A stretch of DNA of 33,302 nt from a virus. Below the pieces are notes generated by a model. It saw only the letters and a program-made list of their open reading frames with translations, did not search any database and had not been told where the DNA came from. Below, in pieces: positions 3,379 to 33,302 of this stretch (the stretch's first letter is position 1; every line of letters begins with the position of its first letter). The stretch covers positions 1 through 33,302 of IMG/VR virus record IMGVR_UViG_3300042898_002578; one strand, 5' to 3'. The position numbers were made by a program, and so were the translations under genes.

Positions 3379-5751
3379 CTAAAAGCTGATATTTCCAGTA
3401 CCAGCGGTTATTGTCGTTACTTTAAAATCTCCAACAGTTGATGTGGTACCAGTAAGTCCAGCGCCAATAGTAATATTATACACTAATGGATATCTAATCG
3501 CTACAATACCAGAACCACCTGCACGACAACCATCTCCACCGTTTCCAGTATTATCTGCACCAGCAACTCCACCCAAACCACCCTGAGAACCGATACCTCC
3601 CTTTGCGTACGTTATTCCAGTAATCGTGCTTACTAATCCTGGGCCTGCAACGTTAAGGGAGCCAGCGCCACCTGCACCACCACCTGCACCAGAGTCAAAA
3701 CCACCATTTGCGTTCATTCCTGGGCTATTAGCTCCAGCAAATCCTTGACCCGCAGTACCAGCTCCACCAGCCCTGCCGTTATCACCACCACCACCACCAG
3801 AACCACCAGCAGCACCGTTTGAATTTCGAGTTCCACCACCTCCACCACCAACGGTAGATATTCCAGCGAATGATGAGCTTCCACCGTTTCCACCATTGCT
3901 TCCACCACCAACACCAGTGACGTCAGGACCAGTGCCCCTGACTCCACCTAATCCAATTGTTACTGAATAAGATTGTCCCGAAATAAGGCTAACGCTTCCA
4001 GTAAGTAGACCACCAGCACCGCCACCGCCTCCTACGTCTGCATCTGTTGCTCCACCACCACCGCCAGCCACAATAAGATACTCGACGGCAATTATAAAGC
4101 TCACATTACCAGTACCTTGAGTAATTGTTGTTACTTTATCCGTTCCTACGACTGATGTAGTCCCAGTAAGTCCAGCACCAATATTAGCAGTGTAAAAAGC
4201 TGGGTATCTTAATATGATGACCCCAGAACCACCAGTACCACCTGTTGTATTACCACCCCTTGTATTTGAAGCACCACCGCCACCGCCACCCCTATTTGCT
4301 AGCGCGGCAAATCCATTTTGTTGACCTTGGCCACCATTTCCACCTACGCCAGAACCACCAGTTCCTCTAGTGACTACTCCACTACCACCACCACCACCAG
4401 AGTAAAAAACTGGAGAGCCTGTAATGCTAGAGGATACTCCAGTACCACCTGCACCACCTGTGGGACCAGAAGCATTTCCTCCAACAGAGCCCATACCTCC
4501 ACCACCACCAGCTGCTGTTGTTAAAGCTGGGCTTGCGTAAGCAGAACCGTTACCACCATTATTACCCTGAGGAGGTGTACCAGCCGCACCAGTTTGACCG
4601 CCGCCTTGGTTTCCACCACCACCACCTGATGCACCAGTTCTAGCTGCGGTCCACCATTGACCACCACCACCTCCGCCAAGAGCAGTTAATCCAAATGCTG
4701 TAGTGCCTCCACCGTCGGCTCCAGCCCCACCGTTTTGTCCAGTAGACCCAACACCACCACCGCCAACGGTTACGGTGTAAGACAAATCTTTCTGAGCAGT
4801 AAATGTGCCAGAGAGAAGACCACCAGCACCACCACCCGCACCCATTCCTTGGTCATTACCAGCACCACCACCACCAGCTCCACCACCAACTAAAAGATAG
4901 CTAGCAGCAATTGTTGTAGCAAGTTGAAAGTTAACATTTCCTGTTCCAGCTGTAATTGTTGTAATTTTATCAGTGCCTACGAGTGCTGTAGAGGAAGTAA
5001 GTCCAGTTGTAGTAATTACAAGAGAGTTTGAGTAGCGCAATACAACAATACCAGAACCACCATTCCGAATAGTGCCAGGGTCTCCACCAGCACCAGCTCC
5101 AGTATTAGCAGCTCCGTTTGAACCGACGGGGGTTCCACCTTGACTTCCAGCGGAGCCATTTGTGTATCCGTTAGCAGCGCCACCACCAGCAAACCAAGTC
5201 GATGTGTTGGTCCAAAGAGCCTGAAGTCCATTACCTGCAGAACCTCCCCAGAGCCCTAGTCCACCAGCGTTGTAACCAGCACTGCCAGCTCCTCCACCAC
5301 CACCACCACCAGTGGCACCACCGCTAGTAAATCCGTTTCCACCATTGTTTCCTTGTCCAGGTGTACCAGCGGCTCCGTTACCGTAACTTAATCCTGGACC
5401 ACCACCACCAGAGCCAACAACACCGTTTCCGCCAGCGGGGCTATGAGATGTGTTAGAGTTTCCTCCTCCACCACCACCCTTGAGGGCTGTGATTGTAGAG
5501 AATACGGAATTGTTACCAGGGTTTCCATCGTTTCTATCAGCGCCACCACCACCAACACCACCACCACCACCAGCTCCTACTGTTACGGTGTAAGTAGAGC
5601 CAAGAAAGCGATTAGTGGTTCCTGTTAAAAGACCACCAGCACCACCACCCGCACCAGCGGAAGCTCCACCAGCACCACCACCAGCAACAACTAAATACTG
5701 AACTTGAAATTGAGCAGTAGAACTTAGGATGGCAGATAAGACGCCAGGCAT
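3379..5751 (-). CDS. Large glycine-rich tail fibre or adhesin, three tandem modules
   Basis: A 790-aa protein made of three homologous glycine-rich modules at about 19-240, 285-517 and 557-755. Each starts (Y)L(I/V/L)VGGGxGG or LIVAGGGGG, runs through YTVTVGxGG, long poly-Gly tracts and NNGGNG segments, and ends GGSGI(V/I)xLRY. The modules are joined by a repeated linker, IGAGLTGTTSxVGxxKVTTITxGTGNxSF, seen at 522-552 and 760-790 and in degenerate form at 247-275. Glycine-rich adhesin domains that pack as polyglycine-II sandwiches are known at the tips of some phage fibres (for example the gp38-type adhesins). That fold is a family-based inference here. The start ATG overlaps the stop of the upstream gene by one base (TAATG). 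Low-complexity plus-strand proline frames opposite it are shadows. Confidence 0.85.
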   Translation of the reverse strand: MPGVLSAILSSTAQFQVQYLVVAGGGAGGASAGAGGGAGGLLTGTTNRFLGSTYTVTVGAGGGGGVGGGGADRNDGNPGNNSVFSTITALKGGGGGGNSNTSHSPAGGNGVVGSGGGGPGLSYGNGAAGTPGQGNNGGNGFTSGGATGGGGGGGAGSAGYNAGGLGLWGGSAGNGLQALWTNTSTWFAGGGAANGYTNGSAGSQGGTPVGSNGAANTGAGAGGDPGTIRNGGSGIVVLRYSNSLVITTTGLTSSTALVGTDKITTITAGTGNVNFQLATTIAASYLLVGGGAGGGGAGNDQGMGAGGGAGGLLSGTFTAQKDLSYTVTVGGGGVGSTGQNGGAGADGGGTTAFGLTALGGGGGGQWWTAARTGASGGGGGNQGGGQTGAAGTPPQGNNGGNGSAYASPALTTAAGGGGGMGSVGGNASGPTGGAGGTGVSSSITGSPVFYSGGGGGSGVVTRGTGGSGVGGNGGQGQQNGFAALANRGGGGGGASNTRGGNTTGGTGGSGVIILRYPAFYTANIGAGLTGTTSVVGTDKVTTITQGTGNVSFIIAVEYLIVAGGGGGATDADVGGGGGAGGLLTGSVSLISGQSYSVTIGLGGVRGTGPDVTGVGGGSNGGNGGSSSFAGISTVGGGGGGTRNSNGAAGGSGGGGGDNGRAGGAGTAGQGFAGANSPGMNANGGFDSGAGGGAGGAGSLNVAGPGLVSTITGITYAKGGIGSQGGLGGVAGADNTGNGGDGCRAGGSGIVAIRYPLVYNITIGAGLTGTTSTVGDFKVTTITAGTGNISF

Positions 5752-7401: not shown

Positions 7402-8255
7402 TATGCCTTCCTGTATCCGTAAACAGCAATCGTTCCGCCTGTTAAAGTTCCTGCGTTTGGAAAAATTCTAAAGCTTGTAAAGCTAGTCGTGGATGTCTGC
7501 ACTCCTGTAAATAAACCAGCGGTTCCACCTGTTCCTCCAGCGGTTCCACCCTTAAGCCCTGTAGAAGTAACAGATGTTTGTCTTGTAAGGAAAGGACCAT
7601 CAACTTCAATATTGGCGACAACCCTAGTAGTGTCTGCTGCTCCAATCCAAATAAAACTTCCTAAGTTAGCTCCAACGTCTTGAACTGGAGAAGTGCCAGT
7701 AAAGGAACCAAAGAAATGAATTGAGTTATGATTTGCTGTATCTGTTCCTAGTTGCACCCTTAGGTAAGTTGAACCGCTAGCAACGCCACCCGAAACAATT
7801 ACCTTGTAGGAGTCGTAAGTAGAGCTAAATGCACCTGTGACCGTAACGCTTGAAACTGCAGTTCCAATTGTTTCTGATTTAATAAACTCAAGACCTGATG
7901 GCGCAACCCACTGAGTAGCGTAATCAGTAGAGCCTGTCTTAGCTAATACCTGACCAGTAGTTCCGCCAGTTGGAAGAGTGGGTACGCCAGACATGGATGC
8001 CCAGAAACTATCATAGTAAAGGTATGCATTGCCGTTTTCAGTGTTATACCAAACCACACTTGTGTCTACAGGAGCAGTAGCGCTAGCTACTACGCCTGGA
8101 CCAGCAGCTCCAGTAGCTCCAGCAGGTCCAGTAGGTCCAGTGTCTCCAACAGTACCCAGCCCCTGCCACACAGTGCCAGTCCACTCCCAAGTAACATCGC
8201 CAACTGTAAATAGCTGACCCACCGTGGGTGAGTTTGGAAAATCAATCGCTGTCAT
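7401..8255 (-). CDS. Short tail fibre with collagen stub and shared receptor-tip domain
   Basis: A 284-aa protein. The anchor MTAIDFPNSPTVGQLFTVGD plus VTWEWTGTVWQG resembles the anchors of the 307- and 312-aa fibres. A short collagen-like piece (GPTGPAGATGAAGPG, about 40-54) follows. Then comes a module WYNTENGNAYLYYDSFWASMSG and [21 protein letters not shown] (about 68-126), and a beta-rich end of about 155 residues finishing IAVYGYRKA. The module and the end closely match the last 225 residues of the 1235-aa collagen fibre, so this is a truncated paralogue keeping anchor and tip. It starts 38 nt after the stop of the 307-aa gene's upstream neighbour region and ends one base into the 64-aa gene. 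A -10-like TATACT lies upstream of its ATG, but no convincing -35 accompanies it. Confidence 0.8.
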   Translation of the reverse strand: MTAIDFPNSPTVGQLFTVGDVTWEWTGTVWQGLGTVGDTGPTGPAGATGAAGPGVVASATAPVDTSVVWYNTENGNAYLYYDSFWASMSGVPTLPTGGTTGQVLAKTGSTDYATQWVAPSGLEFIKSETIGTAVSSVTVTGAFSSTYDSYKVIVSGGVASGSTYLRVQLGTDTANHNSIHFFGSFTGTSPVQDVGANLGSFIWIGAADTTRVVANIEVDGPFLTRQTSVTSTGLKGGTAGGTGGTAGLFTGVQTSTTSFTSFRIFPNAGTLTGGTIAVYGYRKA

Positions 8256-8293
8256 AGTTTTAGTATACCTTACCTTATTCTAACCTGCGGCTA

Positions 8294-9217
8294 TTAAAAA
8301 CTCACTAAACCTTCGCCAGCAGTAAAGCTTGTAATTTTAAATCCTCCGCTGGTTGTAGTTGATGCAGTCAAACCAGCTCCAATACCTAAAGTTACGGTGT
8401 CAGGGTATTTCAGAATTACAATACCAGAACCACCAGCAGCGCCGTTTCCAAGGTTTCCCCAGGGGCCACCACCACCACCACCACCCGTGTTTACAGTTCC
8501 AGCTACAGCGTTATTGCTTGATGAACCAGTTGCACCAGCTCCTCCGCCACCAGTTCCACCAACTCCACCAGCAGAGCCACCTCCACCGCCAGCACGAGTT
8601 ACGGATGTACCAGTAATGCTGTTTGCTAACCCCGCCCCACCATTTACACCAGTAGAGGCAGCACCAGCCCCACCTCCTCCACCGTTAAGAACCCTGTTTG
8701 TATTGGCTCCACCGCCAGCACTTCCCTGACCAGTTATACCAGTAGTAAAAAGGCCTATACCTTGACCAGCATTTGCGGTTCCACCGCCTGAGCCACCACT
8801 TTTCCCGACTCCATTAGACTCACCAGAACCACCACCGCCACCACCGATTGAGGTAATAGTTGCAAAAGAACTGTCACCTCCATTACCGCCTTGGTTAGGT
8901 AAAACTCCAGCAATACCACCAGCACCAACTTTTAAATTCCAAGTTCCAAAAGGTAGGGTTATTGGGCTTTCTGCGGCAGCACCTCCACCTGATGTTCCAA
9001 CAGATGTTCTATAACCACCAGCTCCACCGCCAGCACCAAGGTCCCCAATGCTAGGGCTTTCACCACAGCCACCTCCGCCACCACCAGCAATTATAAGAAA
9101 ATCAAAGTTAACGGTAAATATTCCAATGTCCCAAGCAGCACCATTGTAAGTCCATGATTTGCCTGAGTAGTTATATACCTGTCCAGTAGTAGGTCCAGTT
9201 GGAAAATCTATTGGCAT
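8294..9217 (-). CDS. Glycine-rich tail fibre protein (single module)
   Basis: A 307-aa paralogue of the 312-aa fibre. The N-terminal anchor is MPIDFPTGPTTGQVYNYSG then KSWTYNGAAWD. The glycine-rich module spans about 39-273 (FLIIAGGGGGG to GGSGIVILKYP). The C-terminal motif IGAGLTASTTTSGGFK matches the linker of the 790-aa protein. Poly-Gly tracts of five to eight residues are encoded by GGT/GGA/GGC runs. The start codon overlaps the stop of the 69-aa gene by one base, repeating the small-helical plus Gly-rich gene pair seen at 7401-6269. Probably a receptor-binding fibre; the exact ligand cannot be told from sequence. Confidence 0.8.
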   Translation of the reverse strand: MPIDFPTGPTTGQVYNYSGKSWTYNGAAWDIGIFTVNFDFLIIAGGGGGGCGESPSIGDLGAGGGAGGYRTSVGTSGGGAAAESPITLPFGTWNLKVGAGGIAGVLPNQGGNGGDSSFATITSIGGGGGGSGESNGVGKSGGSGGGTANAGQGIGLFTTGITGQGSAGGGANTNRVLNGGGGGAGAASTGVNGGAGLANSITGTSVTRAGGGGGSAGGVGGTGGGGAGATGSSSNNAVAGTVNTGGGGGGGPWGNLGNGAAGGSGIVILKYPDTVTLGIGAGLTASTTTSGGFKITSFTAGEGLVSF

Positions 9218-9426
9218 TATAGAGCCGCAATTTCTTCTTCGGTTAGACCGAGTGCTGCAAGTTTAGCAAGTGCAGAAGCTCTTGCGGAGTCTTTAGAGGT
9301 TTTTAGTACTTCTTGGGCATCTATTTCCGACTGGTCTATTCTTCTTTGTTCTAAAAACTCTTCAAGCTCTAAACCTTGTAGTTCTATCTTTTCGCTGTTT
9401 CTACCTACATAAATTTTTTCAGTCAT
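9217..9426 (-). CDS. Small helical fibre-associated protein (copy 1)
   Basis: A 69-aa acidic helical protein (MTEKIYVGRNSEKIELQGLE at the start) ending in SALAKLAALGLTEEEIAAL, the same 19 residues as the 64-aa protein at 7207-7401. I chose the ATG at 9426: it has AGGGA six bases upstream and lies one base after the stop of the collagen fibre gene. A longer frame starts with TTG at 9444 inside that gene and has no better signal. The next gene overlaps by one base. Function unknown; a fibre chaperone or linker is suggested by the repeated pairing with Gly-rich fibres. Confidence 0.7.
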   Translation of the reverse strand: MTEKIYVGRNSEKIELQGLELEEFLEQRRIDQSEIDAQEVLKTSKDSARASALAKLAALGLTEEEIAAL

Positions 9427-9427
9427 T

Positions 9428-12400
9428 TTAGTCCCTATATCCAAAGACTTGCACTTTGCCAGTCATAGTTCCAGTATTAACAAGAAGTGTAAAACCATCA
9501 TAAGATTCGGAAGTAGTGTGACGCATGATTCCATTTCCTATAAATGGGCCAGTTGCGTCTGTTGAAATTGAGTGCATCGTCATCTCTGTAGGAATGAGAA
9601 CTTGTGGTTCAAAAATGTCATAAGTACCGTGCCCACGAACAGAAGCTGCAATAAGATTTATCGTGGCAAAAGTTCCTGGGTTTCCAGAGGTAGCTGTGAT
9701 AGCTGTGCCGTTTGTCCTCATGTGATAAAGAACGTTAAAATAATTTGTTATCGCATCAACTGTTGCTTTGGTCAATCTTAAGTTCAACTGTGCGCCTGCA
9801 CTCGGAGTGACCTCTGTAATTATTCGATAGTTTTCATAAGCGGATGTAAAAACATTGTTAAAAGATTGTGAAGCGACTCCAGTAAAAGTTTGTGTAGTTA
9901 TGTGAACTAAGCCTGGTGGTGCAACCCATTGAGTTGCATAATCACCAGAAGTTGATTTAGCTAGTACCTGACCAGCGGCTCCACCGCTTGGAACTCCTCG
10001 ACCAGAAATTGATGTCCAAAAACCGTCGTAGTAAACGTAGGCGTTACCATTCTCGGTGTGATACCAGATTGCACTTGTGTCAGCTGGGCCAGTTGCAGAA
10101 TAAATTACTGCATTTTCCCAAGCTGTTTCGTAGTCTGTGCTAGATGTCTTTTTAAGAACCTGACCATCTGTACCGCCAGCAGGCACGGGGACGTCTGGCT
10201 CTTCATCAGTATCAAGCCACACAACACTTGTATTTGTCGGGGCTGAAGTAGAGGCAAAAATACCAGCTGGTCCAGTAGGTCCAGCAATTCCAGGGTTTAG
10301 GTCAACCCAAGTGCTATCGTAACGAATATATGTTCTACCCTCGGCAGAGTTAAACCAAACATCACCTTCTACAGGAGACGCTGGACCTGTAGCAGAAACT
10401 TCATAAACACCGTCTGCACCTGTAGCACCTGTTGGTCCTGTTGCACCTGTGGGGCCTGTAACTGTAGACGCTGCACCAGTTGCACCTGTAGGACCAGTTG
10501 AACCTGTTGGCCCAGTCTCTCCTAAGTTTCCTTGGATACCCTGAGGTCCTGAAGGTCCTTGCGCACCAGTGTGACCAGTTGGACCCGTGACACCTTGAGG
10601 ACCTGTTTCACCCTGTGGTCCTGTAGGTCCTTGAATACCTTGCGCACCTGTAGGGCCTGTTGGTCCAGTTACAGTTGAGGCTGCTCCAGTAGAGCCTGTC
10701 GGTCCTGTGACACCCTGAATACCTTGGGGACCAGTCTCACCTTGAGCACCTGTAGGACCTGTAACACCTTGGATTCCTTGTGCTCCTGTTGGACCAGTCA
10801 CACCCTGAATACCCTGAGCTCCAGTAGAGCCTGTTGGTCCAGTTTCGCCTTGAGGTCCACTTACGCCTTGGATACCTTGTGGTCCAGTTGGTCCTAGGTT
10901 TCCTTGAGGACCAGTAGGACCTGTAGCGCCAGTTGCACCATCAATACCATTTGTTCCGTTAGAACCAGCTGCTCCCGTAGGGCCAGTGGGTCCCGTAACT
11001 GTAGAGGCTGCGCCTGTAGCTCCTGTAGGGCCAGTGACAGTAGAGTCAGCTCCAGTAGGTCCAGTAGGTCCAGTAGGTCCAGTAGGTCCAGTAGAGCCAG
11101 TAGAGCCAGTAGGTCCAGTAGCACCTGCTGTACCAGTAGGGCCAGTTGGTCCAGTGTCACCAATATCTCCAGTTCTCTGGAAGGTGATATAGAACTCTTC
11201 TGTGTCGGCTGGAGTGAAACTGTTGCCGCTGACGAAGGCGATAGGAACATTGAAGTGGTCAGAGTCGTGCGTGTGCGAGCCTGTGATGCTATAGAAAGCA
11301 AACTCATTCGTGTCAGACTTCTTAGTTAGTTTGAACGTACCCTTAATTTGCGAAGTCGAGTCGTCAATTGTTTGTAGGAAGTTGAAGATGTTTACAGAAT
11401 CAGCATCGATAAAGGCAATGTAAAGAACAGTAGCGGAAGCGGGAGTTGCGTTGTTGAGCCTAAAGATTCCGTTGCCAATAGTCGCTGGGTCGGTTGTGCC
11501 GTCATCAAAGATGTAGTCGAATGTCGCTCCACCAAATTCACCAGCAGGACCAGTTGCTCCAGTCGCACCAGTGGGTCCAGTTACAGTGCTTGCTGCACCA
11601 GTGGAACCTGTAGCACCAGTCGGGCCTTGTGCACCAGTTGGGCCTGTCGCTCCTTGAGAACCAGTTGGCCCAAGCTGAGTGTACATAACCTGCACTGCGG
11701 TAAGAATGATTGAAGGGATTGCTGGATAAACTGGCGAAGTTCCAGCAGGTAAAGCCTCAACCATAAGTTGTGTGCTATCCCCAGCCCAATAAATTTGAAC
11801 GTAATCATTTGCCGCAGCGGTAGCAACATAATTTATTGTGATAACTTGACGGCTAGGGTTTCCTGAACCCTTACGCTGAGGCATATCAATTTCGGTTGAA
11901 GAATCAGGATAATCAACCCCATTTTTCTTTACCCAAAAAATTGCTTTCTGCACAGAGTTGGCAAGGTTTGTTATTTGAATAGAAAATGTAAGACTATAAG
12001 TTCCAGCATAAGCAAAAGTAACTTCATCACCGTTTTGGATGCTCACGCCGTTTGATTCCGCCGTAGTTCCAATTGCAATAACTTGAGCTGCAGAAGTAGA
12101 AACAAGTTGCTGGTCAGTCATGTCATAGAACGAGCCGTAGTAGCCTAGAGCACCACCTGCCCCAGTTTCACCAGTAGAACCAGTAGAACCAGTTGGACCA
12201 GTTGCACCAGTAGCTCCTGTAGGTCCAGTGACGGTAGAGGCGGCTCCAGTAGGTCCTGTTGGGCCAGTATTGCCGATAGAACCAATGTCCCCAGTAGGAC
12301 CAGTTACTCCCTGGATGCCTTGAACACCTTGGATTCCTTGAGGTCCAGTAGGACCAATGTTTCCTTGAGAGCCTGTTGCTCCCGTAGGGCCTGTGGCTCC

Positions 12401-13135
12401 CGTAGCACCAGTCAAACCTGTTGGTCCTGTTACTGTAGAAGCTGCTCCCGTAGGGCCTGTAGGGCCTGTAGCACCTGTCGGACCTGTTACCGTAGAAGCT
12501 GCACCAGTGGCTCCAGTAGGACCTGTAGCGCCCGTAGGGCCTGTTACAGTACTGGCTGCTCCAGTAGCTCCAGTAAGTCCTGTAGGGCCTGTAGGACCAG
12601 TTACAGTGCTATTAGCTCCAGTTGGACCAGTTGGTCCACCTTCACCCTCAAACCCTTGAATACCTTGAGCACCTTGTGGTCCAACCGCACCCTGAGGTCC
12701 TGTTGGTCCAGTGACTGTAGATGCCGCGCCTGTAGCTCCAGATGGTCCTGTTGGCCCTGTTACAGTTGAGGCTGCTCCTGTAGGACCAGTTGGACCAGTT
12801 ACAGTAGAGGCCGCTCCTGTAGGTCCAGTTGAACCAGTTGGGCCAGTAACACCTGTAGGACCTGTAGCACCAGTTGGTCCAGTTACAGTCGAAGCTGCAC
12901 CACTAGGTCCAGTAGCACCTGTAGGACCAATAGCCCCAGTGGGTCCAGTAGCTCCACGTTGTCCAGGAACTCCTGGAAGCAAAGCAATGTCTAGCTCAGG
13001 TTGGGCTTGGTCGTTAGGTATTAGTACTGTATCAAATCCTGGAAAAGGCGCACCAAACTCAACTTCTCCAGCAGGATTTTGTAGTAAGCTTGTGTCTACT
13101 TCAGGATACTTTGGGGCCTCGGGGTTAATCGGCAT
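9428..13135 (-). CDS. Collagen-like tail fibre with three globular domains
   Basis: A 1235-aa fibre. Residues 1-56 form a Pro-rich anchor ([20 protein letters not shown]). Collagen-like G-X-Y tracts cover about 58-327, 488-533 and 656-909, mostly [10 protein letters not shown]. They are interrupted more than ten times by a fixed kink, [10 protein letters not shown] (NSTV and DSTV variants). Globular domain 1 (328-487, [36 protein letters not shown]) resembles a C1q/TNF-like trimer head. Domain 2 (534-655) holds a beta domain with [11 protein letters not shown]. The C-terminal tip (910-1235) has repeated [17 protein letters not shown] and [18 protein letters not shown] motifs and ends VQVFGYRD. 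The tip is shared with the 284-aa protein. Collagen tracts of phage fibres form trimeric rods without hydroxyproline. It follows the adaptor gene with a one-base overlap, so it is probably a major side or tail fibre. Confidence 0.85.
11052..11114 (-). repeat. Nine-base in-frame tandem repeat in the collagen tract
   Basis: Seven consecutive 9-bp units on the plus strand. Four are identical (CCAGTAGGT), two carry a variant (CCAGTAGAG) and one returns to the first form. They encode [19 protein letters not shown]-type repeats on the minus strand (about residues 675-695). Gain or loss of a unit keeps the frame and changes rod length by three residues. Elsewhere in the gene the codons for the same amino acids vary more, so this stretch is the most uniform. 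Confidence 0.85.
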
Positions 13136-14625
13136 TAAAGAATTGCCTCGCTACGACGCTGTACGAAGAAGTTGCCTCCAAGAACCTCCGTATGCTCATT
13201 CGTTAAGGGGTCAACAGTAGCAATCTGCCAATAAGTTCGGTTGGCAAGAAATCTAGTTTGGTCTTCGTTGAGGCTAACCTGAGCAATGTATGTTCCATTA
13301 AAGTTGTCAATTACATTGAGCGCAAAATTATGTATTGCAATCGGTGAGCCACGTTGAGGAAGAACCCTGGCGACTACTCCGTTTCCAATACGTGTTGCAG
13401 TTCCCGCAGAAACAAAAGCCGCAGTTGTAGTTCCTGAGACCTTAAACGTACTGGAGGTGACTGCTGTAACATAGCCACCAACCAAGTTGTATCCTGAGGG
13501 GGATACTCCGCTAATTGAAACTCGGTCTCCTACAGCAAACTTGTTATTTGCAGTGTAAGTAATGGTGGCCCCAGTACCTGTAGCTCCAGTAATTGCTGCA
13601 GTCTTATCCGCAATGCCGCCTGAAACGTATGTTCCAGTAACTGCGCTTGCTACCGTAAATGTGGTGGAGTTAGCTGCCGTAACAACTGCGTTTGTTAAGT
13701 TGTAAGCTGTAGGAGTGACTCCAGTGATTGTTACTGGTTGACCAACAACATAGTTGTTTGACGCCGTATAAACAACCGCTGTTCCTGAACCAACAACGTT
13801 GGTAATTGTAGCGGACAAGTAAACGCTGGCGGTAAAGGTAATTGCTTTGTAGTAATCCAAAGCTTGATAAGCAATAAGCTCGTCTGATTGCGTAGGCCAA
13901 GCAAGTTTAGAATCACCATAAGCAGGAAGAGGAATGTTGACTCTCTGAGGGTAAGACCTGTCATCAACTTCCATGGGCTTGTAAATAGGAACGTAGCGGT
14001 TAGTTGTCTTAGAGATTCGTCTTAGAGTAAATACATCAATACTGTATAGACCAATACCTAGATGCGCACATAGCTCAGAATACTGAGCTTTTCTAGTATT
14101 CATCATGTCTAGTAGCTGGCGGTAACGCTCAGAACGAGGAATTGTAACACCGTCTGGTGCGAAGATGTTGATGTCAAAAGAGGCATCTGTAGCAAGAGTG
14201 TATAGCGCCAAAGCTGTTGCGTAAACTACAACAGGATATTCATCAATAAAAGGAAGGGTCTCAATAGTAATTGCGCGACCTAAAGAGTCTGTGTGCTTTG
14301 CCGAATGCAAAGAAACGGCATTTTGAATTACTTGTGTAAGTTCGGCCCCAGTAAAGTATCTAAAGTAAGTTCCGCTTACAGTGAACTCAGCACCGTCTGC
14401 AGGAAGAACGTCAGTGACTAAAACTCCAGAAGATTCTTCAATAGAGCACGCACTAGATATGTCTATGTTATTTTTGTAAACTACAACTGTAGTAGAGTCT
14501 AATGGTGAGTAATGTAGCTTAAACCTATTAGAGGTTCCATCAGCCATAAACTGGGTTACAAATGACTTACCTATGTCTCCAAGTTCTACACGAACTCTAG
14601 CAACTAGATTGGATACTTCAGCCAT
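13135..14625 (-). CDS. Head-tail adaptor or neck protein candidate with two inserted beta repeats
   Basis: A 496-aa protein. Residues 1-25 ([19 protein letters not shown]) and the helical region about 95-190 ([49 protein letters not shown]) resemble gp6-type head-tail connector proteins. The C-terminal part (262-270 and 416-496) has a split beta domain reading FTASVYL, then [15 protein letters not shown] and [31 protein letters not shown], like phage baseplate or fibre base folds. Between the halves are two tandem repeats (about 272-339 and 343-412) of a phage-typical unit: T(A/I)VYTAxNxxxVGxxVxIxGVxPxxYNL, then VTAxxSxTFxV. It lies directly downstream of the capsid genes and upstream of the collagen fibre, which it may anchor. 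The name is tentative. Confidence 0.65.
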
Positions 14626-15197: not shown

Positions 15198-16328
15198 TTA
15201 AGCGGTGTATACCTTAACGATAGCCTGGTCTGTGATGATACCTAGACCCCAGATAGCGTACCATGCTAGTGCGTGCTCGCGACCGAAGTCTAGAACACCA
15301 CCATCACGGAGCTCAACTGGAAGCGAGATAGCGTGACCAAATGCGTTGTCACCAATCATGATTGATTCGTAGACATCAGTTGCAGTAGTACCAGTGGTAG
15401 CTACAGCACCCGATACAGCTGGGTTTCCACCAGCACCAGGGTTGGTGTTAGCGGTTACTGGAACAACAGCCTGGTTAGCAGGAGCACCGACGGACTGTGA
15501 GTACGCGGTAGCTGCTGCGGTAGCAATGTTGGTTCCAGATGCCAGTAGGTTAACCTGAGTGGTCTCGATGAAGACTACGTCGTATAGACGACCAATCTCA
15601 CCAAGCATGAAGTTACCTGGAGCAGCGTACTTGGTTACTTCGATGAACTCTGGGTTCGAGCGAAGGTCACGAGACTGCTTTGGGTGGATGAACTGAACGT
15701 AGGTCTCACCAATGCGAGGGATGTTCTTACCAGCAAGGGTAAGAGCTGCATCCTTGATTGCACCAGTAGTCAGCTTGTGAGCAGCAGTTACGCCTGCAAG
15801 GTTAGCTGCCTTGGAACCTTCGTCATAGTTGGTGAAGGCACCGCCAGTGATTCCTGAGCGGTCGTAACCAAACACTGCAGAGGTAGCAGCACCAAGGGTG
15901 TTGCGAGCCTGTAGGTCTAGGTACTGTGCCATGTGACGACCAAGTAGACGTGAAGCAGAAGCCATGATGTCGTCGAATGAGGCGTTAAGTAGTAGCTCAG
16001 AAACAGCTACTGCATAACCGTGCTCAGCAACGGTGATAGCAATCTGCTCTGCAGTCAACGCAGAGGTGGTCATACGGACACCTTCGGTAAGTGGAGTTGG
16101 GTCCACTGCGAAGTTCTTGTAACGAAGGAAGTTAACACGAAGACCAGGTGCGACACCTAGTTCAGTCTTCTTAACTGCAAACTGCTCAAAGCGAAGAATA
16201 GGCATCGCCTGGAACAGAATTTCCTTCGACCAGATGGTTTGAATAGCCTGTGATAGTTGGCTATTTGAACCTGAATATGCGGTTGGGGCTCCAGCGAGCT
16301 GGCCCGAACCTGTAATAGCTGATGCCAT
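15198..16328 (-). CDS. Major capsid protein, N4-gp56-like family
   Basis: A 376-aa protein matching the N4-gp56-type major capsid proteins. The N-terminus reads SQLSQAIQTIWSKEILFQAMP. It is followed by LRVNFLRYKNFAVDPTPLTEG (E-loop region) and ITVAEHGYAVAVSELLL, where the hallmark tolerance for AxxxxYG is visible. Later come YVQFIHPKQSRDLRSNPEFIEVTKYA and GEIGRLYDVVFIETTQVN. Near the end are IMIGDNAFGHAISLP and the C-terminal IWGLGIITDQAIVKVYTA. An Ala/Thr/Asn-rich insertion at about 283-327 (AATAYSQSVGAPANQAVVPV onward) could form a surface-exposed loop. The ribosome binding site AAAGGAA precedes the ATG. Codon use here is cleaner (GC-ending) than in the small genes, as expected for high expression. 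Position after the scaffold and portal genes agrees. Confidence 0.9.
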   Translation of the reverse strand: MASAITGSGQLAGAPTAYSGSNSQLSQAIQTIWSKEILFQAMPILRFEQFAVKKTELGVAPGLRVNFLRYKNFAVDPTPLTEGVRMTTSALTAEQIAITVAEHGYAVAVSELLLNASFDDIMASASRLLGRHMAQYLDLQARNTLGAATSAVFGYDRSGITGGAFTNYDEGSKAANLAGVTAAHKLTTGAIKDAALTLAGKNIPRIGETYVQFIHPKQSRDLRSNPEFIEVTKYAAPGNFMLGEIGRLYDVVFIETTQVNLLASGTNIATAAATAYSQSVGAPANQAVVPVTANTNPGAGGNPAVSGAVATTGTTATDVYESIMIGDNAFGHAISLPVELRDGGVLDFGREHALAWYAIWGLGIITDQAIVKVYTA

Positions 16329-17272: not shown

Positions 17273-18994
17273 TTATTCTTTGTCAACTGTCCTATTCTTT
17301 GGAACGTTAGCTCCATAGGCTTGGCTAACCAAAGTCTCTCTAATTTGCTGCTCTGCCATTAGGCTCTCAGCTTCTACAGCTGGGGCTTCAGGGTCAGTGC
17401 CCTGCTGACCAATTTGGCCATCTCCTAGCATGTCCCCATCGCCCATCATCATTGGGTCAACTGGGGTAGCTGTACCATCTGGGCTAGCCATAAAGCCTGT
17501 CATGTCCATAATCTGCTTTTGGACCTGTACCTTAACGAGGTTAAGAGCACCATCAGACTTAGCATCTTCAATAAGTTCTTTGCGAATCTCAACAAGCTTC
17601 TCTTCTGGGAACTCTTCTCCAAGAGCTCTAAGAGCGCCTTCTTTAGACTCAAGACCCATAGATAGCTTCTGAGCCAACTCGTTAAGAAGAACAATCTTGT
17701 CTAGAGGTAGCGGTGGTGGGAAGTGTGCGTAAGTTAAGTAGGTAATTGGGTCGTTAGGGTCTAGCTGAGTTAGCTGACCTTCTTTAATTGGACCGTCAAC
17801 GTCTGGGTTGTACTTAAGGGTTTCTGGTTCTTTTACCGCTAGGTTTAGCATTACTAGCTCGTTAACTCTTTCTAGACCCTTACCGTATACTGCAGTCTTC
17901 TGAGCCCAACGGTTCATCAAAGGCTGGAACTGAATGGAAAGTGCAACACCAGAGGTGTTAGAGATAGGCTGAGCCTGACCAAGAGCTGTCTCTGGAATGT
18001 TCATAAGTTCGTGCATAGACATCTTTAGTCTGTCTAGGTACTCAAGTGCTCCTTGGATACCTGCACCGCCACCTTCAAGGTTAAACACCTGAGCGTCTTT
18101 TGGAAGACCTCCCCAAACCTTCTTAGCACCCTTTTCAAGGTTAGAAGCTTTAGCACCCACGATTACAGTTACAGGAGCTGCGTGGTAGTTGATGATGTCT
18201 GCGATGTCTGTAGAGATTTCATTGTAAGCACGGTTAATTGTAATGATGTCGTGAGCGTCTGAAAGTCCCCAAGGAGAACCAGATACTGGAATGTTTGCAA
18301 TGTGTACGACAGGAATCTGTCCTAGTGGATTTGGTCTAGAGTCGATTAGCTCATCGTTAATGTACTCTTCAATAACATCATCAGTAAGAATTTCAGTGTA
18401 GGTAAACACTTGACGAGTACCTTCTAGGGATGTTCCCCAGAAACGGTACTTCTGCTTAAATCTAAGAAGACGGCTTCTATCGTGAGGGTGAAACTCAGGG
18501 AAAGCAAAAGCAGGGTTTAGTGGGAGAATACGTACACGTCCTGGGTGGAATCTTCCAACGCTGTCTTCCCAAGCTTCTTCGTAGGCTACCTTAACAAAGC
18601 AGTCACCAGTGATTCCACCAGTCTGCGACATCTCGTAGAGAACGTGCATCTTGTCGTTGTCGATTTCCCACACACGCTCTAGACGGTCAGGAACAATAGC
18701 TTCAGTTGCTTTAGGGCTACGGAAGTGAACTCCGTTACCAAAAGTAAATCGAGATAGATAGTCTAGAAACGCACGGTAGTAGTTGAGTGCAATCTGCATC
18801 TCACCTTGCTCACGGCGGTAACCCCAGTGATGACCAAGGTACATAGCCCAGTTAAGTGAGTAACGGTTTAGGCGAGGACCGTGGACCTCAAACTCTTCAT
18901 CAGCTAGTTCTACAAGACCTAGTGGAGAGATAGAAATTGTTAAGTCAGATGACGCAGCTCTATAACTCGGTGGGGAAAAATCAGCTACAGACAT
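17273..18994 (-). CDS. Portal protein
   Basis: A 573-aa protein with the portal order of motifs. The N-terminal part reads RYSLNWAMYLGHHWGYRREQGE, then LNYYRAFLDYLSRFTFGNGVHFR. The wing region contains TGGITGDCFVKVAYEEAW. The LGQIPVVHIAN and GLSDAHDIITINRAYNEISTDIADI segments are the strongly conserved core of phage portals, which bind the capsid vertex and the terminase. MNIPETALGQAQPISNTSGVALSIQFQPLMNRW resembles the portal crown and tunnel. The C-terminus is acidic with a Met/Gly/Asp tract (DPMMMGDGDMLGDGQIG). The start ATG overlaps the stop of the 75-aa gene. Family size (about 550-600 aa) agrees. Confidence 0.9.
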   Translation of the reverse strand: MSVADFSPPSYRAASSDLTISISPLGLVELADEEFEVHGPRLNRYSLNWAMYLGHHWGYRREQGEMQIALNYYRAFLDYLSRFTFGNGVHFRSPKATEAIVPDRLERVWEIDNDKMHVLYEMSQTGGITGDCFVKVAYEEAWEDSVGRFHPGRVRILPLNPAFAFPEFHPHDRSRLLRFKQKYRFWGTSLEGTRQVFTYTEILTDDVIEEYINDELIDSRPNPLGQIPVVHIANIPVSGSPWGLSDAHDIITINRAYNEISTDIADIINYHAAPVTVIVGAKASNLEKGAKKVWGGLPKDAQVFNLEGGGAGIQGALEYLDRLKMSMHELMNIPETALGQAQPISNTSGVALSIQFQPLMNRWAQKTAVYGKGLERVNELVMLNLAVKEPETLKYNPDVDGPIKEGQLTQLDPNDPITYLTYAHFPPPLPLDKIVLLNELAQKLSMGLESKEGALRALGEEFPEEKLVEIRKELIEDAKSDGALNLVKVQVQKQIMDMTGFMASPDGTATPVDPMMMGDGDMLGDGQIGQQGTDPEAPAVEAESLMAEQQIRETLVSQAYGANVPKNRTVDKE

Positions 18995-19781: not shown

Positions 19782-21407
19782 TTAGAAAAATGGTGAAGTA
19801 GTTGATTGAATCTCTGGCATGACTAATTCTTGTGTCAAAGAACATGCTATCGCAATACTGTCCACAAAGTCATCGTGAGCGTAGGTCTCTTTTGGCGCGG
19901 CAACGCTAAAGTTAGGCCCCTTAAAGTGCACTTCGGCATCTGTCATTTGCTGTATAAATCTCTTGTGAACCCTAAGCCTTCTGGTCTTAGCGTGGTTAGG
20001 GTAAGTAATAGAGCGCCTTTGGATTAGAGACTGTAAGTGCTTAAATCGCTTTGACTGCTCAGTAGGGCTTGAGGTTAATGGGATTACTTCTGCCCTAGGA
20101 AGCAAGATTTTTAATCTTTGAGCTACTGCGTCACCAACACCGTTAGCGTCAACGCCGATAGCAAGAACATCGTAATTGCTAAGGAAATTAACAATTTGGA
20201 AGTATTGCTCTTCCCAGTCATCTCCCTGTAATTCCAACCAGTTAAGGACTCTGTGGTCAAAATAGCCAAATTCATCTGGACGGTCCCAGTCAACCCAGAC
20301 AACTGTGACCACAGTGGAGTCCATCTTTCTAGCAGGGTCGATTCCGACCACAACAGGGGTTTTATGCCAGACTTTGACGAGTTCTTGAGACGTATCACCA
20401 AGCTCATCCATGACGCTAGAGGAGACAAACATTCCTCGTTCAAGAAGCCATTTGCAGTTGTACGACATCTGGAACTCATCGGACTCTTCTCCAATTCTTA
20501 ACATTTCTTTTTTAATAAACTTTTGGTAATCAGGGTTTACTTTTGATACGTCTTTCCAGTCCCACTGGAAGTGGTTTTGCTTAGCTCCCCTACCAGTTGC
20601 TTTTCTTTTGTTTAGCTGGATAGCTCTATAGAAGTTATTTTTGCTTGTTGTTGGTGTACCTGTCTTAATCATTGTACCTGCGTAGTACGCCAACATAGGT
20701 GATATAGATTTAGAAACTGTAAAGTCGTCTGCTTCTTGACACTCGTCAATTACGATAACGTGGAAAGACTTAGACTCAATTTTTGCTCTTGGGTTAGCTG
20801 TCATCATGGTAATAGTAGAGCCAGACCGCATAAGCTTTATCTGTCTGGTTACTCCACCAACACGCTTGGTAGTGTCATCAATTTCTGGGTCACCCAGTAC
20901 CTCTAGTGCACGCTCAGATGTGAGCCTAGTAACAGTTCTACCAAACAGTGTTTCTGCCTGTGATTCAGTAGGTGCAAACATTCCTACCCATAGACCCTCT
21001 TTAAACTTACCTAGAAGGTCTGGGTACAACTTAGCTAGCAAAGGAAGAATAACCATTAAAGTCGCTAGTACATCAGAGACAGTCTCTGTCTTACCTGACT
21101 GTCTTGATGCAAGAGCTGTAATTTCTTCACCATCATTAATTATGACTGACTCAATAACACGTCTTGCCAATGGCTTTTGGTATGGGTGAAGGTCATGCCC
21201 AACAAGAACTACCATAAAGCTCATGATTTTATCTATGAGTTTATTAACGAACTCTTTAGTTAGTTCGTCTTCTTCCTCTTCTTCGTCAAACTCGTTAGGA
21301 AGGACATGCTCTTCTCCAGAAAAGAACTCAGGGTTAATTTCTTCAAACTGGTAGTCTTCTTCACTGGGATAATCAGTTATTTCTTCGAACTGTGGTTCGT
21401 CAGACAT
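19782..21407 (-). CDS. terL: Terminase large subunit
   Basis: A 541-aa DNA packaging motor. The first 50 residues are strongly acidic (EEEEEDELTKEF). The ATPase domain has Walker A SRQSGKT (101-107), a FAPTESQAETLFGRT adenine-binding region (144-158), Walker B VIVIDE (217-222, catalytic E222) and coupling motif TGTPT (249-253). The RNase H-like nuclease domain shows the acidic triad: D356 in GIDPARKMDST, D420 in IGVDANGVGD and D512/D516 in HDDFVDS. The length fits large terminases that work with a separate small subunit. No small subunit is recognised in the window. It starts 8 nt before the stop of the 80-aa gene. Confidence 0.95.
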   Translation of the reverse strand: MSDEPQFEEITDYPSEEDYQFEEINPEFFSGEEHVLPNEFDEEEEEDELTKEFVNKLIDKIMSFMVVLVGHDLHPYQKPLARRVIESVIINDGEEITALASRQSGKTETVSDVLATLMVILPLLAKLYPDLLGKFKEGLWVGMFAPTESQAETLFGRTVTRLTSERALEVLGDPEIDDTTKRVGGVTRQIKLMRSGSTITMMTANPRAKIESKSFHVIVIDECQEADDFTVSKSISPMLAYYAGTMIKTGTPTTSKNNFYRAIQLNKRKATGRGAKQNHFQWDWKDVSKVNPDYQKFIKKEMLRIGEESDEFQMSYNCKWLLERGMFVSSSVMDELGDTSQELVKVWHKTPVVVGIDPARKMDSTVVTVVWVDWDRPDEFGYFDHRVLNWLELQGDDWEEQYFQIVNFLSNYDVLAIGVDANGVGDAVAQRLKILLPRAEVIPLTSSPTEQSKRFKHLQSLIQRRSITYPNHAKTRRLRVHKRFIQQMTDAEVHFKGPNFSVAAPKETYAHDDFVDSIAIACSLTQELVMPEIQSTTSPFF

Positions 21408-30377: not shown

Positions 30378-30381
30378 AAAG

Positions 30382-30454
30382 CTGGTCTGACAGGGCTCGA
30401 ACCTGTGACCTAGGAGTTAACAGCTCCCCGCTCTGCCAACTGAGCTACAGACCA
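30382..30454 (-). tRNA. tRNA-Asn (GTT)
   Basis: Cloverleaf on the minus strand: 7-bp acceptor stem TGGTCTG/CAGACCA, D-arm GCTC/GAGC, anticodon stem GGGAG/CTCCT with loop CTGTTAA giving anticodon GTT, and T-arm ACAGG TTCGAGC CCTGT. Discriminator base is G, as for tRNA-Asn. The 3-prime CCA is not encoded. It decodes AAC and AAT codons, frequent in the Asn-rich fibre and capsid genes. Confidence 0.95.
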
Positions 30455-32485: not shown

Positions 32486-32707
32486 TTAGAGGTCTTTAGC
32501 GTAGTCAGCTTGAGTCTTGAACTGGACAGGACTTAGATTCCTGTTAGCCTTTTTAGCCGCTCTGCGGTTGGCTACTGCCTGACCCACACCTGCTGCAGCT
32601 GCTCCGACCGCCATTGGAATTAGTGGGCTTCCTGCGCCTGTTACCATTGCGCCAACAGCTGCGCCTAGTATAGCTGCGCCGCCTGCACTTAAGTCTGGTT
32701 TCTTCAT
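32486..32707 (-). CDS. Glycine-zipper membrane protein
   Basis: A 73-aa protein with two Gly/Ala-rich hydrophobic helices (about 8-26, AGGAAILGAAVGAMVTGAGS; 28-46, LIPMAVGAAAAGVGQAVANR) of glycine-zipper type. A basic tail follows (RRAAKKANRNLSPVQFKTQ). Such proteins insert in membranes and can oligomerise. It is alone on the minus strand between the plus operon and the repeat-rich noncoding region. A -10-like TACAAT lies at about 32722-32727 without good -35. Confidence 0.65.
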   Translation of the reverse strand: MKKPDLSAGGAAILGAAVGAMVTGAGSPLIPMAVGAAAAGVGQAVANRRAAKKANRNLSPVQFKTQADYAKDL

Positions 32708-32960
32708 GGCACAAGAGTATCAGATTGTAGGGGCGTTTTAAGGTTAATTTTTTATTTTGTTTATTCGGCTACTGCCTAACTTTCGGAGTGAATCCTGCGG
32801 GTTTGCCCTGGCACTAACTATTCTGTCAAGCGGTCTAATGGGTGGGGGTAGCGGATAAGGGCTTAGGGTTAGGCTGGTGCCTTATGGTAATGTAGTCCTA
32901 TAACCAATACACATTAGCAACTTGGGATTATCCAACTTAGCTAATCGGCTTGGATAGGTG

Positions 32961-32988
32961 TCCTTACCGCTTACGCCTTACGGCTTAC
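32961..32988. repeat. CTTAC heptamer array 1
   Basis: Four tandem 7-bp units: TCCTTAC, CGCTTAC, GCCTTAC, GGCTTAC. The CTTAC core is invariant and the first two bases vary. It is followed by GGCGGGCGGGG. Confidence 0.8.
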
Positions 32989-33115
32989 GGCGGGCGGGGA
33001 CTAGGGCAACCGCCTTAGTCTAGGGGCATTAGGCGTATGGATTACCCAACGCCCGTATTATCCCTAACACCTAACTTGCTTTTGCGTGTGTGAATAACAC
33101 ACCCGAGAGGGGATA

Positions 33116-33150
33116 GGGCTTAGGTCTTATGGCTTATGCTCTATCCCCTA
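33116..33150. repeat. CTTA heptamer array 2
   Basis: Five tandem 7-bp units: GGGCTTA, GGTCTTA, TGGCTTA, TGCTCTA, TCCCCTA. Same CTTA core and same 7-bp period as array 1. It lies between the arms of the GGGGATAG/CTATCCCC inverted repeat. Confidence 0.7.
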
Positions 33151-33176
33151 TTGGTGAACCCTATTCGCTATCCCTC

Positions 33177-33212
33177 TAGGGGGGAAATCCCCCCTATGAC
33201 CCCCCTAGGGGG
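33177..33212 (+). promoter_or_regulatory. Alternative G/C-tract hairpins upstream of the right-edge gene
   Basis: Four arms in order: TAGGGGGG (33177-33184), CCCCCCTA (33189-33196), CCCCCCTA (33200-33207), TAGGGGG (33206-33212). Arm 1 can pair with arm 2 or 3, and arm 4 with arm 2, so structures compete. They sit 53 nt before the ATG of the next gene, as expected for an attenuator or leader switch. No U-tract follows. Confidence 0.6.
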
Positions 33213-33264
33213 TTAGGGACTAGGGAAACGCCCTATCCTATTCACACACACGAAAGGCAACATT

Positions 33265-33302
33265 ATGACAGCAACACTAGTAAGCAACGCCCGTATCCTA
33301 GA
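33265..33302 (+). CDS. Partial CDS, plus-strand gene at right edge
   Basis: ATG at 33265 begins MTATLVSNARIL and runs off the window. Ribosome binding site GAAAGG lies 8 nt upstream. It is preceded by the long structured noncoding region and is the start of a rightward gene block, presumably early or replication genes (inference). Too short to name. Confidence 0.65.
   Translation, partial: MTATLVSNARIL

Follow-up and report, generated by a model that had tools for sequence, protein, structure and literature searches.

A candidate translation-controlling leader RNA in the noncoding strand-switch region of a tailed phage

The region between positions 32708 and 33264 of a 33302-base virus record, a 33 kb phage fragment referred to here as the window, raises the question of what its many repeats do: do they form an iteron-type replication origin, or do they belong to a leader RNA? 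The original prediction had left both readings side by side and had described the region as free of genes and rich in repeats. The ORF list bore out the first description, with no ORF of at least 50 aa on either strand (32715-33264). The region is bounded by divergent genes, a leftward one at 32486-32707 and a rightward one with its ATG at 33265. The 73-aa leftward protein has a 63% identical counterpart in the single close relative found, IMGVR_UViG_3300032323_002584 (L084, the same record as L002), and gave no match in PHROGs and Pfam searches. The start of the partial rightward gene, which PHROGs and Pfam assigned to no known family, resembles MTATLEIRND..., the homologous start of a 107-aa ORF in that relative.

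The window derives from a tailed phage, since genes for a terminase (19782-21407), a portal protein (17273-18994) and a major head protein (15198-16328) are present on its minus strand. The terminase matched at least 598 IMG/VR stretches, the best 80 of them about 80% identical, and was 50% identical to those of Streptomyces phages of the BRock group. Judging from these terminase relatives, the source is probably a large freshwater actinobacterial phage. In relatives with contigs of 81-100 kb, a long operon occupies one strand and a shorter operon the other, with noncoding DNA between them. The region is best read as a divergent control region between a leftward late/structural operon and a rightward operon. 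A tRNA-Asn gene (anticodon GTT, 30381-30454, minus strand) was found among the small late-operon genes. Highly repetitive Gly-rich and GPTG (collagen-like) tail-type proteins are encoded on the minus strand at 9428-13135 and 3379-5751, and these genes produce strong local GC skew. In several family members we also noted, immediately before small leftward genes, an element of the form TTAAAACGCCCC-N-(GATACT, CACACT or similar)-ATG, at 32742-32708 (minus strand) in the window, in three copies in L089 (G005), and in L097 (G009) and L099 (G010). This promoter-like element may be a family-specific late promoter.

The repeats themselves exceeded chance expectation. Two CTTA arrays with a 7-bp period had been claimed, of four and five units. 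The phasing held, but the arrays contain four units (32963, 32970, 32977 and 32984) and three units (33119, 33126 and 33133, spanning 33119-33139). Five CTTA pairs at 7-nt spacing were observed against a shuffle mean of 0.04, a number reached in none of 2000 dinucleotide shuffles; when the choice of 4-mer was free and the period could range from 5 to 24, five phased pairs were reached in 2 of 300 shuffles. All three copies of CTTANNNCTTANNNCTTA in the 33 kb window fall within the noncoding region, and shuffled sequences contained none. The five highest scores of ungapped direct repeats were 13, 11, 11, 10 and 10 (shuffle means 9.3, 8.5, 8.1, 7.6 and 7.5), and none of 40 shuffles reached the summed direct-repeat score of the region. 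Repeat content and phasing thus lay above shuffled sequence, the phasing less strictly so under the free choice of word and period, and the description as repeat-rich stood. TAGGG/CCCTA is also very frequent, with 15 copies, and 32741-32766 is 85% A+T. Among the imperfect repeats, the longest are mostly inverted: 33079-33096 with 33239-33256, 33103-33122 with 33135-33154, and 33159-33184 with 33200-33225.

As a rightward RNA, 33079-33257 was predicted to fold into a three-way junction of helices P1, P2 and P3 (Table 1). The fold of 33076-33262 had an energy of -100.6 kcal/mol on the plus strand (z = -10.0), and none of 200 shuffles folded equally well; on the minus strand the energy was -84.2 kcal/mol (z = -5.6). 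The difference between plus and minus strands, -16.4 kcal/mol, stood against a shuffle mean of 1.2 with a standard deviation of 4.0 (z -4.45), and the corresponding difference in L084 was -17.6 kcal/mol (z -3.86). It arises because several G.U pairs exist solely in the rightward RNA. This preference for the rightward strand argues for RNA over DNA. A DNA cruciform as the main conserved object was rejected, since both strands would then fold equally well. The 300 nt upstream were not unusually structured (z -1.25). Within P3, the G6 tract has two C6 partners, and the calculated energies favored the long pairing (-42.8 kcal/mol) over the alternative a.b pairing (-38.7 kcal/mol), so a switch of P3 between its two C-tract partners is possible in this model.

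Table 1. Coordinates of the noncoding region's features and flanking genes in the window
Feature	Position	Strand	Basis
Small leftward gene, 73 aa, left boundary of the noncoding region	32486..32707	-	ORF list
Leftward promoter-like element, CCTTAAAACGCCCC...GATACT...ATG	32708..32742	-	Sequence; TAAAACGCCCC before ATG in G005, G009 and G010
Block 1 of the family (GGCTACTGCCTAAC), at the head of the noncoding region	32767..32780	+	Also heads the region in L084 and other relatives
Block 2 of the family (G-tract GGGTGGGGG), 73 nt downstream of block 1	32840..32848	+	Spacing in relatives
CTTA-N3 array, four units, absent from L084	32963..32990	+	Sequence; comparison with L084
P1 (predicted), 5' arm, including CUUU that pairs with the Shine-Dalgarno sequence	33079..33096	+	RNA folds; pair count in the hand alignment
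P2 hairpin (predicted), arms formed by the three-unit CTTA array	33101..33155	+	RNA folds; double compensatory changes
P3 hairpin (predicted) with G6/C6/C6/G5 tracts, containing the family hairpin and C-tract (33178-33205)	33159..33225	+	RNA folds; pair count; family motif
P1 (predicted), 3' arm, continuing into the Shine-Dalgarno sequence GAAAGG (33252-33257)	33239..33257	+	RNA folds; pair changes in L084
Start of rightward gene, MTATLVSNARI..., truncated by the contig end	33265..33302	+	Sequence

L084 carries homologues of the neighboring genes together with the noncoding region. Protein-based and pattern searches of IMG/VR for further close relatives yielded only this record, nucleotide searches of phage and plasmid collections were without yield, and searches of genome contigs by protein and by pattern gave no match. 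In the alignment of the two phages, the head of the region (GGCTACTGCCTAACTTTCG, CCTGCGGGTT and GCCCTGGCACTAAC) and the last ~220 nt were conserved, but the middle with the four-unit array was not. DNA identity was 83-87% at 33100-33300 and 51-63% at 32800-33000, compared with about 60-88% in most aligned coding stretches. The arrays fared poorly in this comparison: the first is replaced by unrelated sequence in L084, and the second retains two of its three CTTA. The equivalent region of L084 contains 12 CTTA and no TAAG on this strand (11 and 2 in the window), with no CTTA pair 7 nt apart. The word bias is thus common to both phages and the phasing is not, and the arrays were rejected as conserved iterons. 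The CTTA words recur because one CUUAGG can pair with a second, two of the pairs being G.U, and in P2 they make up the two arms. The heptamers are by-products, in part hairpin arms and in part unconserved sequence.

The fold, by contrast with the arrays, was retained, as the two phages fold independently into the same three-way junction. Ten substitutions between them hit paired positions in a hand-placed alignment, and none breaks a pair; 55 of the 61 pairs are unchanged, four show double compensatory changes and two show one-sided, G.U-compatible changes. When 23 substitutions were placed randomly, a mean of 9.0 pairs were broken, an outcome with no broken pair was seen in none of 20000 trials, and four or more compensations had a frequency of 0.0002. 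The double changes in P2 are at 33113-33144 and 33116-33141, with a further one at 33101-33155 that involves a hand-placed gap; P1 has a double change at 33095-33240 and a one-sided wobble at 33080-33256. This gap, of 5 nt, is needed for two of the four double changes, and a covariance model places it similarly. The MAFFT alignment without editing still showed two double changes and a wobble, and nothing was broken except a misaligned helix foot. Sliding the partners by 1-3 columns lowered the paired cells from 98% to 33-58%. The covariance model matched solely the window and L084 in 0.99 Mb, and realignment with it restored the foot of P2. The covariation is drawn from few changes in the same two sequences from which the structure was derived, and a shuffle control of it was not significant (133 of 500), a permutation being powerless with two sequences. 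An Rfam search gave best matches far below the gathering threshold. Taken together, the predicted RNA structure is computationally well supported and, on these models, real.

The position of P1 suggests what the structure might do. The 3' arm of P1 leads into the sequence GAAAGG, seven bases upstream of the ATG; the opposite arm offers CUUU in the window and CCUU in L084. Bases 33253-33258 (AAAGGC) of the window leader had predicted unpaired probabilities of 0.02-0.21, and those of GAAAGG in L084 were 0.00-0.07, with the exception of one A. As P1 extends into GAAAGG, its closed form should hinder ribosome binding at the first rightward gene. The last ~180 nt would be transcribed rightward and form the 5' leader of the operon on that side, which is presumably early. 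The leader would then fold with P1 as its closing stem, P2 formed from the CUUA repeats and P3 from the G and C tracts, and the closed P1 would hold back translation of the operon's first gene. The Shine-Dalgarno sequence might be freed if P1 opened or if P3 switched to its other C-tract partner. Shortening the leader in silico freed just part of the Shine-Dalgarno sequence because other pairings formed. A promoter scan found no consensus match to a rightward promoter in the window or L084, and a terminator scan found no U-tract terminator in the leader. Translation control of the first rightward gene is the simplest reading of the predicted fold and its most likely candidate function.

The strand-switch noncoding regions of phages with ~80% identical terminases share a layout, but not the three-way junction. 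GGCTACTGCC comes first, and a G-tract (TAAnGGTGGGGGGGT in most) follows about 72 nt on. Block 1 stands at the head of the region in L084, G003, G005, G006, G009, G010, G011, G017, G022, L152 and L153; the spacing between blocks 1 and 2 is 71-75 nt in L084, L153, G017, G003 and G005, and block 2 is aligned in the others. The regions often have another GGCTACTG as well as a direct repeat, TTGATAGC. Farther downstream, on the same strand and still in noncoding DNA, they carry AGGGGG-loop-CCCCCTATAACCCCC or a variant, a terminal G-hairpin with a C-tract. The strict form of this motif was found in 8 IMG/VR contigs, four of them with the terminase and a fifth with nearly the same locus as one of these. 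P3 of the window contains a variant of the motif, and the rest of the junction is limited to the window and L084, so the window elaborates locally on a control region that the family shares. A junction common to the whole family was rejected, because the covariance model matched those two alone in 0.99 Mb. The C-tract (GTGACCCCCC) matches block 2 (GGTGGGGGGGTC), and this match continues past the tracts in G003 (TTTC/GAAA) and in G005 (GGGTGGGG/CCCCACCC); in the window no such continuation is clear. The match might reflect pairing over a long distance or protein sites in inverted orientation.

Several further observations concern the same family. The shared layout was seen in L084, L091, L097, L099, L101, L152 and L153 and in contigs G003, G005, G006 and G022; a pyrimidine-rich stretch occurs in several of the strand-switch regions, as do TTGATAGC repeats. 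L097, oriented minus (G009), has 12-nt and 23-nt tandem repeats (GTTACC/GTTATC words) 76-128 nt after GGCTACTGCC, at a position similar to that of the CTTA array but with a different unit. To the right of the strand switch in L140 (G010) lie a rightward gene for an AAA+ ATPase-like protein (7969-9330), whose best PHROG is annotated 'porphyrin biosynthesis', and, on the opposite strand, a match to queuine tRNA-ribosyltransferase (12684-14183). Streptomyces phage BRock was discarded as a comparison, as tRNA genes crowd the DNA upstream of its terminase and make that region unsuitable for comparison.

The evidence bears unequally on the functions that such a region might have. An iteron origin, at which a phage initiator would bind the CTTA heptamers and open the AT-rich 32741-32766, would account for the phasing above chance and for the A+T content of that stretch, and G009 has a repeat with a 12-nt period (GTTAC/GTTAT) in a similar place. 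We consider it highly improbable, given that none of the 12 CTTA in L084 are spaced by 7 nt, that an ORF replaces the AT-rich stretch there, that half of the phased CTTA are accounted for as hairpin arms, and that most relatives have no comparable array and several none at all. Iteron origins of plasmids and phages likewise have short phased direct repeats beside an AT-rich stretch, but here phasing and AT-rich stretch are not conserved in L084 and the window shows no initiator gene. As had been stated, no replication gene is visible in the window, which is a 33 kb fragment ending at the start of the rightward operon; in relatives with contigs of 71-100 kb, the genes for a DnaB-type helicase and a family-A DNA polymerase lie tens of kb from the region, which accounts for their absence here. 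The possession of these two enzymes agrees with a different kind of origin, in which the rightward RNA would serve as a primer or form an R-loop and the repeats and hairpins would be its secondary structure. The region is the main strand-switch point and is noncoding in all relatives examined, and several of them have direct repeats, the hairpin with C-tract and AT-rich stretches. Cluster A mycobacteriophages are known to have RNA-based origins in the vicinity of noncoding RNAs (PMC7157519); these adjoin parABS and are expressed in prophages. Those prophage origins (Wetzel et al. 2020, PMC7157519) resemble the present case in the noncoding intergenic region, the putative noncoding RNA and the actinobacterial phage, but no parABS was seen here and the structure here extends into the start codon. 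An RNA-primed origin is nevertheless quite unlikely: a primer has no need of a P1 that enters the Shine-Dalgarno sequence, the three-way junction is not kept across the family, and the helicase and polymerase genes are distant. The GC skew, proposed earlier as a check for an origin, gave no usable signal: it follows gene direction and varies between relatives, and in most of them its extremes lie away from this point.

The structure could also act on transcription or RNA stability, as a put-like antitermination element or as a leader that protects the 5' end of the rightward operon's transcript. The operon begins with a long and stable predicted structure that is without a U-tract terminator, and P3 could alternate between two pairings. 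This is rather unlikely, because the pairing with the Shine-Dalgarno sequence is kept in both phages, including the wobble at 33080-33256, and neither a known put or box sequence nor an Rfam match above the cut-off was found. The put RNAs of lambdoid phages consist of two small hairpins. They too are structured RNAs near the start of a phage operon, but the present element is a 180-nt three-way junction with no Rfam sequence match. That repeats and stems merely reflect G- and C-tract composition is suggested by the 15 copies of TAGGG/CCCTA and the ordinary z of -1.25 upstream; set against the z of -10 relative to dinucleotide shuffles, the strand asymmetry (z -4.5) and the compensatory changes in L084, this explanation is scarcely credible. 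The leader shares more with 5' leaders that hide the Shine-Dalgarno sequence, such as thermometers and riboswitch-like or translation-controlling leaders, namely a long 5' structure, a final stem that pairs with the Shine-Dalgarno sequence, and compensatory changes; it differs in having no Rfam match and two members found.

Of the two readings first proposed, the leader RNA was thus supported by the strand-specific fold, the compensatory changes and the Shine-Dalgarno pairing, and the iteron origin was not supported, given the unconserved phasing and AT-rich stretch. We consider it probable, on the strength of the modeled fold, that the element is a structured 5' leader of the rightward operon, located in a divergent control region and controlling translation. 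If the main task of the region is a family-wide one, the three-way-junction RNA would be a mere local addition. In a bolder and improbable version, the region would serve a large family of freshwater phages both as origin and as early control element, and the RNA of this clade would be a new class of switching leader, in which the G6 tract of P3 pairs with either C6 and couples replication or transcription from the region to translation of the first rightward gene.

The region provides a candidate structured RNA that Rfam does not cover, from a little-studied group of phages whose members are frequent in metagenomes (at least 598 terminase matches). The element is a defined 180-nt unit at the place where these genomes chiefly switch strands, and by means of the family-wide layout many related phages known from metagenomes could be searched for their control region, and possibly their origin.
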